From SAR116 cluster bacterium AG-337-N21 (lineage in GTDB: Bacteria > Pseudomonadota > Alphaproteobacteria > Puniceispirillales > Marisalimonadaceae): DNA of 64,000 nt. A model generated the notes under the pieces. That model searched no databases. It worked only from the letters and a program-made list of their open reading frames with translations, and was not told the DNA's origin. The translations under genes were made by a program, and so were the position numbers. Every line of letters starts with the position of its first letter. Positions within the stretch are counted from its first letter, which is position 1. The DNA lies in contig QBZZ01000006.1 of the NCBI GenBank assembly GCA_003282145.1, positions 30,868 through 94,867 of the forward strand, written 5' to 3'. Shown here in pieces: positions 25,613 to 46,709 of the stretch.

Positions 25613-25704
25613 GGAGGGATGGCTGAGTGGCTGAAGGCGCCGGTTTGCTAAATCGTTAAAGGGAGTAATCCCTTTCGGGGGTTCGAATCCCCCTCCCTCC
25701 GCCA
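25613..25704 (+). tRNA. tRNA-Ser (anticodon GCU)
   Basis: A complete class-II tRNA with an encoded CCA. Acceptor arms GGAGGGA (25613-25619) and TCCCTCC (25694-25700) pair perfectly. The D-arm 'GGCTGAGTGGCTGAAGGC', anticodon loop TTGCTAA (anticodon GCT, 25647-25649), a long variable arm (GGGAGTAATCCC) and T-arm 'GGGGGTTCGAATCCCCC' are all present. It decodes AGC/AGU. The ORF track's minus-strand 60-aa ORF over it is an artefact. The tRNA 3' end is followed by an integrase remnant, so it served as an integration site. Confidence 0.97.
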
Positions 25705-25846
25705 TTAAGATAACTTCCTTATGTCATACTATGTCATAAACCTTAGGATACACGGGAAGTTGTTGACGAAGGCTCTTCATACTATTTCATTATAAATCAT
25801 CTTTAATCAAACCAACTTGTGGGCCAAGTTGTAGACCGGAGATGAC

Positions 25847-25915
25847 ATGAGAAAATTAAATGCAAAACAATTACAAACTTTACCTAATGACAAATATCAT
25901 GATGGGAATGGCCTC
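25847..25915 (+). pseudogene. Remnant of tyrosine-recombinase (DUF4102-type integrase) N-terminus
   Basis: The first 23 codons read MRKLNAKQLQ... followed by 'KYHDGNGLTL'. This resembles the start of P4-type phage integrases, where 'kL.a......k...yhDG.GLyL' is the typical N-terminal arm-binding domain opening. Similarity stops around 25915, and the frame then runs into antisense of an adenylate cyclase fragment and ends at 26062. Its position about 140 bases after a tRNA 3' end, in the same orientation, is where such integrases sit. Only a stub is left, with no catalytic domain. Confidence 0.6.
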
Positions 25916-26032
25916 ACATTGACGCAAATTATGGATGGTTTCGCTTTCATCTGTTTCCATATGTTTGCTATAACCAACAATATCCGTTGCAAAGATGACT
26001 GCAATTTTGCGTTCAATTTTTTCCTTAACCAT
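25907..26032 (-). pseudogene. Remnant of class III adenylate/guanylate cyclase N-terminus
   Basis: Reading the minus strand from ATG 26032 gives MVKEKIERKIAVIFATDIVG followed by YSKHMETDESETIHNLRQCE. This is the start of the class III nucleotide cyclase catalytic domain ('RkLA.i.atDvvGYS.lme.dE..t...l..c'), including the first metal-binding Asp in 'ATDIVGYS'. Similarity breaks off after about 42 codons, where the sequence becomes the integrase stub in antisense. It is not in the ORF track. Clearly truncated and non-functional. Confidence 0.65.
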
Positions 26033-26120
26033 GATTACTCACAAAAATATTTTAACTATTAGATCTTAACCGAAGATAATGGCATCCGTAAAGATACTGT
26101 CCAAATGAATCTACCAAACC

Positions 26121-33317: not shown

Positions 33318-33753
33318 GGACAGAATTAACTTAAGGCTTTATAATTGATATCTGGCCATTAGTTAGTTGCCTGGAGGAGCATCTAATTTTTAGGATAAGG
33401 GTAGCTTTTAACATCAAGAATTTTTCAAATCTAAACTAAATTAAAGTAAGTTGTAGACTAATTTGTAGACTAAATAATTATTATTCTATAAAATCTAATT
33501 AAATCAGATGATTAAAATGAAATAATGAGGAGGTTCCCTCCACCATAATTTATAGAAACGTTTAATATAAACAAATATAAAAATAATCATATGAAACTTT
33601 AAAAAGCTAGCCTAGTTTTTTTTGAGGTTGCCGAACTTATAAAGTGTATTTCTAATTTATATTATTCCTTTTTCATGCAATTAATATATGTATTAATAAT
33701 ATCTTTAAATGTGTAACTAATTATTTTGAAAATATTTAAATTTATATATCTTA
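33318..33753. other. 436-base intergenic region with repeat and possible attachment-site relic
   Basis: No gene. It contains one copy of the TAGACT element (33451-33500) and TCCCTCCACCAT (33535-33546), which matches the end of the tRNA-Ser gene in 11 of 12 bases. GGAGG-TTC-CCTCC also forms a small hairpin here. The remaining 200 bases up to the HtrA-like gene are AT-rich with no feature I can support. Confidence 0.5.
33451..33500 (+). repeat. TAGACT element, copy A
   Basis: TAGACTAA and TAGACT lie 12 bases apart, then TATAAAAT begins 18 bases after TTGTAG, a sigma70-like spacing. The next plus-strand gene is the HtrA-like protein, about 260 bases downstream. It aligns without gaps to copies B-E. 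Confidence 0.6.
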
Positions 33754-34800
33754 ATGTCTATAAGTCCTAATATTGCAAAGGAATATTTAAGATTGTCTAA
33801 GTTGAACCTGATTATAATAATTTTTTTCTATAAATTTTGTTTCCTAATATCCCTTAAGATATTCGCTCAAGAAACTATTTTGAAAAAAGAGAAATTTAAT
33901 GATTTATATAATTCAATTGTAAGTATTCATTCAATAATTCCAAATGAAGCAAGAACTTCAAAGAGTCTTGGAACTGTTAGGCAAGGTAGTGGAGTAGTAA
34001 TTGATAATACAATTATACTTACAATCGGCTATATTGTTCTAGAGGCGAACGAAATCACCATTGGCTTACTAAATGGAAAAAAAATACCCGGAAGATTAAT
34101 TGCGTACGATTTTGAAACTGGCTTTGGTTTAGTCTCCCCTATAGTTCCGACAAAATTAAATTCTCTAAAAATGGGTGACTCAAGTAACATTAAAATGGAC
34201 GATTCTATTTTTATACTTCCTTCACCAAATATAGGTGTTGGCTCGTTAGCTAAAATGGTTTCCAGAAGGCCATTCGCTGGTTGGTGGGAATATTACTTAG
34301 AGAAACCTATTTACACATTACCAAATAATCCAGCTTGGGCAGGAGCGCCTTTAATTAATTACAAAGGTGAAATAGTAGGAATAGGTTCGCTGTTTATTAG
34401 AGATGCTGTAAGCCCTGAAATAATATCTCCGGGAAACATGTTTGTTCCTATTAATCTATTAAAACCAATCATAAAAGATTTAGTAAGATATGGTCGTAGA
34501 ACTTCAAATATTAATCCTTATATTGGATTATCTTCGGATGATAATAGTGGTAGAATAGTTGTCAATAAAGTTAGTAAAGATGGACCTTCTTATAAAGCTG
34601 GAATTAAGCCAAATGATGTAATAACAGGAGTTAATGGGCGATTAGTTAATAATTTAGAAACTTTTTATAAAGCTGTCTGGAGTTCAGGAAATTACGGAGT
34701 AATGATTAAAGTTGACATAATTCGGAATGGAAAAAAAATGAATTTTAACATTAATACAACAAATAGAATGGATTATTATCTTAAAAGCAACTCATACTAA
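33754..34800 (+). CDS. HtrA/DegP-like S1C protein with degenerate catalytic triad
   Basis: Exported trypsin-like protein with a C-terminal PDZ domain, 348 aa. A hydrophobic segment near 17-38 acts as signal or anchor. The protease-like core shows 'RQGSGVVIDNTIILTIGYIV', 'AYDFETGFGLV' and 'NNPAWAGAPLINYKGEIVGIG', where active proteases have TNHHVV, D..TDLALL and GNSGGPL. His, Asp and Ser all appear replaced. PDZ: 'VSKDGPSYKAGIKPNDVITGVNGR' near 275-300. This suggests a non-proteolytic scaffold or peptide-binding protein. No obvious SD. Confidence 0.8.
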   Translation: MSISPNIAKEYLRLSKLNLIIIIFFYKFCFLISLKIFAQETILKKEKFNDLYNSIVSIHSIIPNEARTSKSLGTVRQGSGVVIDNTIILTIGYIVLEANEITIGLLNGKKIPGRLIAYDFETGFGLVSPIVPTKLNSLKMGDSSNIKMDDSIFILPSPNIGVGSLAKMVSRRPFAGWWEYYLEKPIYTLPNNPAWAGAPLINYKGEIVGIGSLFIRDAVSPEIISPGNMFVPINLLKPIIKDLVRYGRRTSNINPYIGLSSDDNSGRIVVNKVSKDGPSYKAGIKPNDVITGVNGRLVNNLETFYKAVWSSGNYGVMIKVDIIRNGKKMNFNINTTNRMDYYLKSNSY

Positions 34801-34825: not shown

Positions 34826-35380
34826 ATGAAAGTTTTTCAAAAATTAGATGATTTTTTGGACTTTGCCTGGGGACAGATTTCTAGGGGAAAGGCTGACAAA
34901 AAATCTCCCGCGAGGCACCCTACTTTTGTGACGTCAAGTGCTGATGGTTTTCCAAATGCTCGTACTTTAGTGATGAGACGGAGCGATAGGAAAAATAACC
35001 AAATAGAGTTCCACACTGACACCGCTTCTTCAAAAATGTTGGTCCTCGAGGAGAACCCACGAGCTGGAATTCACATTTGGCTGCCAAAAGTTCAATTACA
35101 AATTCAGATAGAAGTTGTTGTTGAAGTGAATGTTGGCGACATTATCATTCCAAACTGGAAAAATGTTCCAACTAGCTCTAGGACCGCTTATGGAACTATT
35201 CCTAGCCCTGGTACCGTCATTGGAAGCTCCCATGCCTATGATTATGCCCCAGATCATAAACGTTTTGCCGTTTTGGTATGTCATATACAATCAATTCAGC
35301 TTCTGCTTTTAGGCGCTAAACATACTCGTGCTTATTACAAAAATACTACTAATTGGCAAGGAGAATGGTTATCTCCTTAA
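34826..35380 (+). CDS. Pyridoxamine 5'-phosphate oxidase-family FMN-binding protein
   Basis: PNPOx-like split-barrel protein, 184 aa, similar to the Alr4036-type FMN-binding domain. Seen: 'PARHPTFVTSSADGFPNARTLVMRR' and 'IEFHTDTASSKMLVLEENPRAGIHIW', matching the 'R.vvLR....l.f.tD.rS.K...l..nP' family pattern. It is probably a flavin-binding enzyme of undefined substrate, not necessarily vitamin B6 synthesis. Its base composition looks clearly higher in G+C than its neighbours, suggesting recent acquisition. A TAGACT element follows the stop. Confidence 0.8.
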   Translation: MKVFQKLDDFLDFAWGQISRGKADKKSPARHPTFVTSSADGFPNARTLVMRRSDRKNNQIEFHTDTASSKMLVLEENPRAGIHIWLPKVQLQIQIEVVVEVNVGDIIIPNWKNVPTSSRTAYGTIPSPGTVIGSSHAYDYAPDHKRFAVLVCHIQSIQLLLLGAKHTRAYYKNTTNWQGEWLSP

Positions 35381-35381
35381 A

Positions 35382-35432
35382 TTGAAGACTAATTTTTAGA
35401 CTGAAAGATTGTTTTTCAATAAAATATGATGA
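35382..35432 (+). repeat. TAGACT element, copy D
   Basis: AAGACTAA and TAGACT 12 bases apart, then AATAAA 18 bases after TTTTAG. It lies between the PNPOx-like gene and the small membrane protein gene, ending about 90 bases before the latter's ATG. Weaker than copies A and B but ungapped. Confidence 0.5.
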
Positions 35433-41103: not shown

Positions 41104-43353
41104 TTATTTCACTTCAAACAATATAACAGCAAAGAGATTATCCTTATCTGTCCATGTTGCAATTTTGTTGAAACCAGACAAAGAAGCCAATTCTAGAAAT
41201 TCATGAATATGATATTTATATGAATTTTCTGTATGGATTGTTTCTCCAGCTGTAAAGAAAAATCTTTCTTTACCAATATTAACAACCTGATCAATGCAAC
41301 TTTCAAGATGCATTTCTATTCTACCTTCAAAAGTATTATAGCGAGCAATGTGACGAAACAAATTTAAATTGAAATCAGCACCTAATTCTTGGTTGATTCT
41401 AGAAAGCAGGTTTTTATTAAAAGCTTCAGTAATACCATATTTGTCGTCATATGCTTTAATAAGCATTTCATGATCTTTCTTTAAATCGACACCTATTAGC
41501 AATTTTCCATTTTTACCAACAGTTTTACAGATTGTCTGTAAAAAAGCTGTGGCATCGGCTGGCTCAAAATTGCCAATGGTTGAACCTGGGAAAAACGCAA
41601 CTTTAGACTTTGGAATACGTTGAGACGTTGGAATTTTAAGTGGGGAAGTAAAATCAGAAGCAACTGTTAAAACCTCAAGTTTTGGATAGGCCTTACTTAC
41701 TATTCTTGCAGAATCTTGTAGCTGTTCCTCTGAAATGTCTATTGCACATAGTGAAACGGGTTTATTTAATGAATCTAGTAGTATACGCACCTTCTCAAGA
41801 GAACCCGAACCGTATTCAATTAGTGTTATGTCCGGACCAAGATATTTTGCAATTTCATTTGCATTTTTATTAAGAATATCAATCTCTGTATTTGTTGGGT
41901 AATACACATCAAGTTTACAAATCTTTTCGAATAATTTTGCACCTTTAAGATCATAAAGATACTTAGATGATGTTCGTTTGGGTATTTTACCTAATCCTGA
42001 AATTACATGATCTAAAAATATATCTTTATTACTATTATCATTAGCATATACATTATTCGTAGAAGCAAATTTATCTTTAGCTAAACGTATTCCTGAAAAT
42101 TGCCAGCGTGCACTTGGAGGAAAAAAATTCCGATAAGAAGCTCTTATATGTTCTGAAGGGGTTGCGCACGAACCACCTCGTAAGACCATCTGACCAGACA
42201 TAAACTTGCCATTATATTCTCCTACAGCACCTTCAGGAATGTGGTAGCCTGGATAAGGATTGAACGAACTTTGGGTCCATTCCCATACATCTCCATAAAT
42301 TTGTGAAACACCATCTTTTTTTGAAGGTCGAGGGTCAAATATATTAGCATCAGCAAAATGTCCATCTAATTCATAAGAGTTGGCAATAATTTCCCATTCA
42401 GCTTCTCGAGGTAACCTGGCATTTGTCCATCGAGCAAAAGCGTCTGCTTCATAATAACTTACATGGCAAACTGGAGCATTCAGATTAATTGGACGCATAC
42501 CACTCATTGTAAAATTAGACCAAGTACCATCATCATTTTTGTGCCAATACATTGGAGCTTCCCAATTTTCTTTTCGACACAGGGCCCAACCATCAGATAA
42601 CCAAAAATCAGCCCTGTTGTAACCATCATCTTCGATAAAATTAATATACTCACGATTAGATACTGGATATTTTGCTAAATGAAATGGTTCAAGCCAAATT
42701 TTATGTCGTGGGCCTTCAGCATCAAAAACAAAATCTTTGCCAGAATATCCAACTTCAACAAGTCCTCCAGGATGGTCTGTCCAACTATTTTCAGTTACAC
42801 TCAATGCTAAAGTTGGGGGATACTCTTTGTAAACAGGATATAATGGATTTCTTGAAAGAGCATGTTTGATGTCTGTTATTAAAAGTTCTTGATGTTGTTG
42901 TTCGTGATTAATACCAAGCTCTATTAACTGCAAAACATCTGATGTTGGCTTAGTTTGAAAGTAATCTCTCATTGCTTTATCTACATGATCTCTATATTCG
43001 TATACTTCAGCTGATGAAGGACGGGTTATCATGCCTCTTTCAGGTCTTGCGTGACGATCCCCTATTTGCTCATAATAAGAATTAAACAAAAAATTGTAGT
43101 TAGGATGAAATTCCTGATAATCACTTACAAATCTTTTAAGGACAAATGTTTCAAAAAACCAAGTGGTATGAGCTAAATGCCATTTAGTTGGACTTGCATC
43201 AGGCATTGACTGAATACATTGATCTGCTTCACTCAAAGGTGATGATAGTTTTAGAGTTTGATCACGTACCTTGTTATAAAAACTTGCTAAATGATCATTT
43301 AAAGATATTTTTTTATAATTTATAGATGATTTAAAAATGATGTTTCTCTGCAA
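41104..43353 (-). CDS. egtBD: Fused ergothioneine biosynthesis protein EgtB-EgtD
   Basis: One 749-aa ORF joining two enzymes. Residues about 15-430 are EgtB: DinB-like iron site ('KWHLAHTTWFFETF' near 57-70; HxxxH at 150-154 in 'NHEQQHQELLIT'), then the FGE/sulfatase-modifying fold with 'VLRGGSCATPSEHIRASYRNFF' and 'RWQFSGIRLA'. Residues about 445-749 are EgtD, histidine trimethyltransferase: 'YYPTNTEIDIL', SAM motif 'LIEYGSGSLEKV', 'FFPGSTIGNFEP'. EgtD makes hercynine; EgtB adds sulfur. The B-D order is the reverse of fungal Egt1. Separate egtA, egtC and egtE are absent nearby. Start TTG. Confidence 0.9.
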   Translation of the reverse strand: MQRNIIFKSSINYKKISLNDHLASFYNKVRDQTLKLSSPLSEADQCIQSMPDASPTKWHLAHTTWFFETFVLKRFVSDYQEFHPNYNFLFNSYYEQIGDRHARPERGMITRPSSAEVYEYRDHVDKAMRDYFQTKPTSDVLQLIELGINHEQQHQELLITDIKHALSRNPLYPVYKEYPPTLALSVTENSWTDHPGGLVEVGYSGKDFVFDAEGPRHKIWLEPFHLAKYPVSNREYINFIEDDGYNRADFWLSDGWALCRKENWEAPMYWHKNDDGTWSNFTMSGMRPINLNAPVCHVSYYEADAFARWTNARLPREAEWEIIANSYELDGHFADANIFDPRPSKKDGVSQIYGDVWEWTQSSFNPYPGYHIPEGAVGEYNGKFMSGQMVLRGGSCATPSEHIRASYRNFFPPSARWQFSGIRLAKDKFASTNNVYANDNSNKDIFLDHVISGLGKIPKRTSSKYLYDLKGAKLFEKICKLDVYYPTNTEIDILNKNANEIAKYLGPDITLIEYGSGSLEKVRILLDSLNKPVSLCAIDISEEQLQDSARIVSKAYPKLEVLTVASDFTSPLKIPTSQRIPKSKVAFFPGSTIGNFEPADATAFLQTICKTVGKNGKLLIGVDLKKDHEMLIKAYDDKYGITEAFNKNLLSRINQELGADFNLNLFRHIARYNTFEGRIEMHLESCIDQVVNIGKERFFFTAGETIHTENSYKYHIHEFLELASLSGFNKIATWTDKDNLFAVILFEVK

Positions 43354-46295: not shown

Positions 46296-46709
46296 ATGTT
46301 AATTAGGTTTGTTATAAAAATCGTTTGTTTTTTGTTAAGCATTAAGTTTGCATTTGCTGATATTGTTGATGTTAACAATGAACAGATAAAAGAATTATCA
46401 AAAATTAATATTCCAATAGTGGATATAAGAAGAAGTTCAGAGTGGGACCAAACCGGAGTAGTGCCCAAAAGTATTTTGCTAACCTTTTTTGATAAAAAGG
46501 GAAATTATAATTTTGATAAATGGTATGAAAATTTACGCTTAAAAATTAATGACGGAAAACCAATTATATTAATCTGCAGAAGCGGTAGAAGAACGAGAAT
46601 AATAGCCGAAATGATGGATAAAAAATTTGATAATGTTATATATAATGCAAAATACGGAATAAACTCTTGGATTGATGAAAAATTAATAACAGTTAAACCA
46701 TATCATTAA
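46296..46709 (+). CDS. Exported rhodanese-like domain protein
   Basis: Periplasmic single-domain rhodanese, 137 aa. A signal peptide (MLIRFVIKIVCFLLSIKFAFA, cleaved near 21) precedes the rhodanese fold: 'VDIRRSSEWDQTGVVPKSILL' near 42-62 and the active-site loop 'ILICRSGRRTRIIAEMM' near 90-106, with the catalytic Cys present (CRSGRRT). It transfers sulfane sulfur or acts as a thiol carrier in the periplasm. TAGACT copy C lies upstream. Confidence 0.86.
   Translation: MLIRFVIKIVCFLLSIKFAFADIVDVNNEQIKELSKINIPIVDIRRSSEWDQTGVVPKSILLTFFDKKGNYNFDKWYENLRLKINDGKPIILICRSGRRTRIIAEMMDKKFDNVIYNAKYGINSWIDEKLITVKPYH

Follow-up and report, generated by a model that had tools for sequence, protein, structure and literature searches.

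The window (the whole stretch of DNA that was analysed, 64 000 nucleotides) carries a gene for an HtrA-like protein, referred to below as pseudo-HtrA or the window protein. The features of the locus are collected in Table 1. The nearest named records to the window protein were SAR116 single-cell genomes, at 86–90% protein identity. No neighbour of the gene was conserved beyond close relatives. DUF992 as an upstream neighbour was rejected: apart from a pair of Neorhizobium records, only one more locus shared it.

Table 1. Features of the pseudo-HtrA locus and of the associated tRNA gene (window coordinates).
Feature	Position	Strand	Basis or remark
tRNA-Ser(GCT), apparent island target	25613..25704	+	ends CCCTCCGCCA
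Probable 95-bp attachment arm ('TAGACT copy A')	33451..33545	+	12-bp direct repeat in two copies, 33451-33474; IHF consensus AATCAGATGATTA, 33502-33514; displaced tRNA-Ser 3' end GGTTCCCTCCACCA, ending 33545
Pseudo-HtrA gene	33754..34800	+	ORF of 348 aa; probable true start TTG 33793, after AAGGA
Signal peptide (predicted), residues 14-38, LSKLNLIIIIFFYKFCFLISLKIFA	33793..33867	+	hydropathy and sequence
Trypsin-like (pseudoprotease) domain, residues 78-210	33985..34383	+	Pfam
Tyr93, catalytic His position, in LTIGYIV	34030..34032	+	alignment; Tyr in 165/169 members
Gly123, catalytic Asp position, in ETGFGLV	34120..34122	+	alignment; Gly in 169/169 members
Trp178-Glu179-Tyr180, family-specific invariant	34285..34293	+	family alignments
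Ala196, catalytic Ser position, in NPAWAGAPL	34339..34341	+	alignment
PDZ domain, residues 255-334	34516..34755	+	Pfam; carboxylate loop NPYIGLS at its very start, P255 and G258 invariant
C-terminal tail SNSY, PDZ-ligand-like	34786..34797	+	sequence; unstructured in model
PNPOx-like flavoprotein gene	34826..35380	+	adjoins pseudo-HtrA in close relatives only

Start, domains and structure model

The annotated ATG at 33754 is probably not the start of the gene, since it is absent from one orthologue (L004), while an AAGGA-like site and the TTG at 33793 are kept in four genomes; this TTG is the probable start. Read from it, the protein opens with a signal peptide of classical type, whose last letters ...LKIFA precede Q39 (an FAQ end). 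Export of the proteins was called heuristically, from hydropathy. The window protein would be an exported envelope protein located in the periplasm.

Pfam profiles gave Trypsin_2 (E 2.7e-11) followed by PDZ_2 (E 1.8e-16), both above the curated cut-off and in the domain order of HtrA (S1C) proteases. A model was computed with AlphaFold2 from a 52-sequence alignment; its mean pLDDT was 94.5 and the only segment below 50 was the last four residues. The best PDB matches of the model were DegP, DegQ, DegS, mycobacterial HtrA and plant Deg1, with TM-scores of about 0.45–0.6 over the full length, values that the long N-terminal helix and the orientation of the domains probably depress. DegP, DegQ and DegS (HtrA, MEROPS S1C) were the best matches by both sequence and structure and share with pseudo-HtrA a signal peptide, a trypsin-like double barrel and a PDZ domain with a carboxylate-binding loop. 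Pseudo-HtrA differs from DegP and DegQ in lacking the triad, in having one PDZ domain instead of two and in carrying family-specific invariants in its loops. The window protein fell below the cut-off of every NCBIfam model, those for Do/DegP/DegQ/DegS/HhoA included (best score 90.2 bits against a required 416.2, TIGR02037); the Do-family model matched 52/52 members of the family alignment, as distant relatives.

Loss of the triad across the family

Catalytic positions were placed by a phmmer alignment with solved DegP and DegQ chains and by a MAFFT alignment with SAR116 DegP proteins, whose triads are intact. Both put Tyr93, Gly123 and Ala196 at the three positions. The first-pass annotation had reported all three residues as replaced in exactly these motifs and the barrel and PDZ domain as intact; the alignments, the PDZ_2 match and the confident model with its structure matches agree with it.

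The survey was extended to an alignment of 169 family members, the window protein included, nearly all from Alphaproteobacteria. The His-Asp-Ser triad was absent from every one. The His position is occupied by Tyr (165 members), Phe (3) or His (1, L183), and L183 has Gly and Pro at the remaining two. The Asp position is invariably Gly. The Ser position is mostly Gly, Ala or Ser, the Ser being kept in 28. No His column exceeded 62% in this alignment. The window protein has one Cys and only one His; this residue, H59, is not conserved, most orthologues having Asp or Arg in its place. An active site elsewhere in the window protein was excluded because no His is conserved among the 169 members. 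The source genome (about 2.04 Mb, 55 contigs) also encodes a DegP-like protein whose HDS triad is intact.

Purifying selection acts on the pseudo-HtrA gene: dN/dS was 0.12–0.26 in ten SAR116 pairs. Since none of the 169 members has the triad and dN/dS is this low, its loss is not an effect of chance or of sequencing. The window protein is almost certainly a catalytically dead protease. The earlier view of a pseudoprotease rather than a degrader has good support in these sequence data (the three replaced residues, a triad-free family, the intact PDZ domain and the selection regime). A protease using an unusual mechanism, independent of the triad, might be suspected from the intact fold and PDZ domain and from the Ser kept in 28 of the 169 members; it is very unlikely, as Gly fills the Asp position throughout, most members have Ala or Gly in place of the Ser, and no His is conserved that could act as a base.

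Orthologues were found in 29/136 genomes of the order (E <= 1e-25), a patchy distribution within SAR116, and matches in 95/385 sampled genomes of the class (E <= 1e-22), often two per genome. A phylum-wide sample gave matches in 36/399 genomes, only two of these outside the class. Two single-contig genomes of 1.2 Mb (G233 and G507) also retain the gene. The patchiness in SAR116, the island junction next to the gene and an in-frame TAG in one relative (G097) are what a decaying pseudogene or functionless island cargo might show. This explanation is hardly credible: it is contradicted by the dN/dS of the ten pairs, frames are open in nearly all copies found in the order-wide search and motifs are invariant across the class. 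The copy with the in-frame TAG (L067, G097:C180:5282-6166), an orthologue from the SAR116 order, could be either damaged or misassembled.

Several residues are invariant in the family and missing from DegP (F174, W178-E179-Y180, P190, N228, P232 and P255); R76, Y93, E97 and G123 were listed as further family-only invariants. By alignment, these residues seem to lie in segments corresponding to the regulatory and active-site loops of HtrA, in place of the catalytic loops. All the family motifs are present in the window protein: TIGY...EA, G-x-G in the Asp loop, FxGxWEY, P190, NM..P and P255 with G258, together with the lost triad. Loss of the triad is a class-wide trait of a family and not an oddity of one protein, a point that the first-pass annotation had missed. 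The window protein belongs to this large family of dead alphaproteobacterial HtrA proteins, which probably lost the triad before its members diverged.

Members on plasmid records came from Neorhizobium, Rhizobium, Pararhizobium, Phyllobacterium and Azospirillum and, where annotated at all, mostly bear the RefSeq label 'S1C family serine protease'. The family, present in about a quarter of the sampled alphaproteobacterial genomes and often twice, is named in most public records that give it a name after an activity whose classical mechanism is impossible in 169/169 members, and NCBIfam offers no model that covers it. Literature searches returned no description of this pseudo-HtrA family. A 2008 survey of 'serine protease homologues' treated the same concept, trypsin-family proteins without catalytic residues (2/247 in 91 genomes), and in the portion consulted described no family of this kind (PMC2605481). 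Pseudoproteases of the HtrA fold are already known; the present family is broad, unnamed and mislabelled.

Exported and non-exported forms and their possible roles

The family splits into exported members, among them the window protein, and members without a signal peptide. A quick ML tree gathered those without the signal mainly into one derived clade, and the signal peptide was apparently lost separately in the L098/L100 pair; the root of this tree is uncertain, because support is by SH-aLRT only and the outgroup branch is long. The clade includes L095, L106, L109, L112, L113, L138 and others; WxIPPxxQPRPxDxxFDLD is an example of their N-termini, and their C-termini are polar (-LH, -LQ). These paralogues are presumably cytoplasmic forms of pseudo-HtrA.

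The two forms also differ at the C-terminus. The window protein ends in -NSY, a hydrophobic last residue behind Ser, which is a PDZ-ligand-like pattern. In a non-redundant set, a C-terminal Y, F, L, I or V was found in 52/55 exported members, mostly behind Ser or Thr, and in 1/56 non-exported members; among neighbouring genes the frequency was 24%. This association comprises only two phylogenetically independent contrasts (sign test, p 0.5), is not statistically established and may for that reason reflect shared ancestry. The tail of the exported form resembles, at the level of sequence pattern, the C-terminal ligands of HtrA PDZ domains. The carboxylate loop of these domains follows the pattern R/K-XXX-G-phi (PMC11642142), and it is retained across the 169-member alignment as [RKNQ]P[WY][LI]G. 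The split between exported and non-exported members offers a clean comparison for the function of the tail.

The likely role of the exported protein is in binding or as an adaptor, without proteolysis; its partner may be an active HtrA. The evidence counted for this role comprises the loss of the triad, the DegP of the same genome, the dN/dS values, the family invariants, the PDZ domain, the HtrA-like model, the signal peptide, the tail and the retention in 1.2 Mb genomes. Against it count the failure to find a conserved neighbour gene that would indicate a partner and the two contrasts behind the tail pattern. In the proposed mechanism, pseudo-HtrA would act in the periplasm and bind envelope proteins or peptides. 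Its former regulatory and active-site loops would have become a fixed binding surface and its PDZ domain would bind C-terminal peptides. The tail of the exported form, -[S/T]-[Y/F/L], would engage a PDZ domain. This could be its own, in self-assembly or gating, or one on an active HtrA, for example DegP. The earlier suggestion of a binding or sensory protein is a reasonable conjecture in view of the PDZ loop that is kept, the loops specific to the family and the tail.

DegP-type proteins have chaperone roles. Pseudo-HtrA might likewise be an independent holdase or ligand sensor, its dead protease domain and PDZ domain binding unfolded envelope proteins or a small ligand with no HtrA partner. 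All the active-site loops are fixed in forms peculiar to the family, and no conserved gene pointing to a partner was found in the neighbourhoods of family members, as this explanation would have it. It is a tentative possibility: the PDZ-ligand-like tail of exported members would be superfluous in a plain holdase, and there is one PDZ domain only, in contrast to the cage-forming DegP.

The adaptor role has an analogue in MamO of magnetosomes. Like pseudo-HtrA, MamO is an HtrA-derived dead protease of Alphaproteobacteria accompanied by an active HtrA; it is no longer proteolytic, binds metal and activates MamE, which is an active protease (PMC4794232). It is the experimental precedent for a dead HtrA activating an active one. 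Its triad is degenerate, with Thr for Ser and the catalytic residues properly placed, and it has a di-His metal site and a C-terminal transporter domain (PMC4794232). Pseudo-HtrA instead has Tyr, Gly and one of Gly, Ala or Ser at the catalytic positions, a PDZ domain and no conserved His; the window protein, with its one non-conserved His, has no such metal site and ends after the PDZ domain. Magnetotactic delta- and gammaproteobacteria also have inactive MamE duplicates, HtrA copies without the triad (PMC4794232). These are narrow in distribution and magnetosome-bound, whereas the pseudo-HtrA family spans many alphaproteobacterial families.

A metal-binding pseudoprotease similar to MamO was also considered, as MamO binds transition metals (PMC4794232) and the MamE and MamO profiles match some members weakly. 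The MamO profile matched only 6/52 members (best E 1.5e-6). The metal role of MamO is not transferable to pseudo-HtrA because no His or Cys is conserved anywhere in the family; this highly improbable explanation was dropped.

The adaptor proposal can be extended to a general pairing of pseudoprotease and protease in the alphaproteobacterial envelope. The exported tail [S/T]-[Y/F/L] would dock on the PDZ domain of an active HtrA and mimic a misfolded client, thereby switching or targeting proteolysis, as in the MamO–MamE pair; the paralogue without a signal peptide would have lost the tail and taken a separate cytoplasmic role. In this general form the proposal is speculative and rather unlikely to hold. 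If gating of HtrA or a dead chaperone proved true, MamO would be one instance of a common pseudoprotease strategy.

The TAGACT element and other genes of the window

The TAGACT copy A noted earlier upstream of the gene is real (33451-33472). This 22-mer has two copies with three mismatches, at 35382 and 46156; none is expected by chance. Weaker copies lie at 35382, about 37449, 44396 and 46156, others at loci L292-L311, and SAR116 genomes contain 1–6 copies. A 41-bp extension of the 22-mer was present in 25/40 genomes of the genus, and its reversed pattern gave no matches in these 40 genomes. The full unit is about 95 bp long with abrupt ends. Comparison of 49 sites, in pairs with both flanks available, gave 24 sharing only the left flank, 17 only the right and 11 both. 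An IHF consensus was found downstream in 31/46 sites (about 0.007 expected for each), and a core resembling the 3' end of tRNA-Ser ends 28/46 sites, 26 of the 28 at exactly 95 bp. A search of Rfam gave a chance-level match only.

A promoter or regulon was first entertained from the repeat, a TATAAAAT box and the genus-wide spread; it was dropped, the elements being junctions of about 95 bp that carry both an IHF consensus and the displaced 3' end of a tRNA-Ser. Copy A is unlikely to have a regulatory function. It is better read as the distal attachment arm of an integrative element targeted to tRNA-Ser, marking a genomic-island junction. Such an arm would combine a pair of integrase arm sites with an IHF site and the tRNA fragment that was displaced; genomic islands are known to have this arrangement (PMC4383910). 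The TAGACT units of SAR116 are apparent recombination junctions, arms of tRNA-Ser-targeted elements piling up in tandem. An integrase-like N-terminal remnant lies at 25847, after tRNA-Ser(GCT), and at L303 an intact integrase follows one TAGACT copy. Within 25613-26062, the truncated integrase-like N-terminus (MRKLNAKQLQTLPNDKYHDGNG...) stands behind TTGTRGRCC repeats; we read this piece as what is left of the island's integrase end.

Pseudo-HtrA lies just beyond the junction, and close relatives keep the gene while the left side changes (the window against L032 and L033). The junction may contribute to the patchy presence of the gene near this site. In other SAR116 lineages the gene occupies other genomic contexts.

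Two further genes of the window were noted. A small exported rhodanese-like protein of 137 aa is encoded at 46296-46709 (+), downstream of a degenerate TAGACT copy. A single ORF at 41104-43353 (-) combines DinB_2, FGE-sulfatase and histidine-specific methyltransferase domains, and its product resembles a fusion of EgtB and EgtD, a protein for ergothioneine synthesis.
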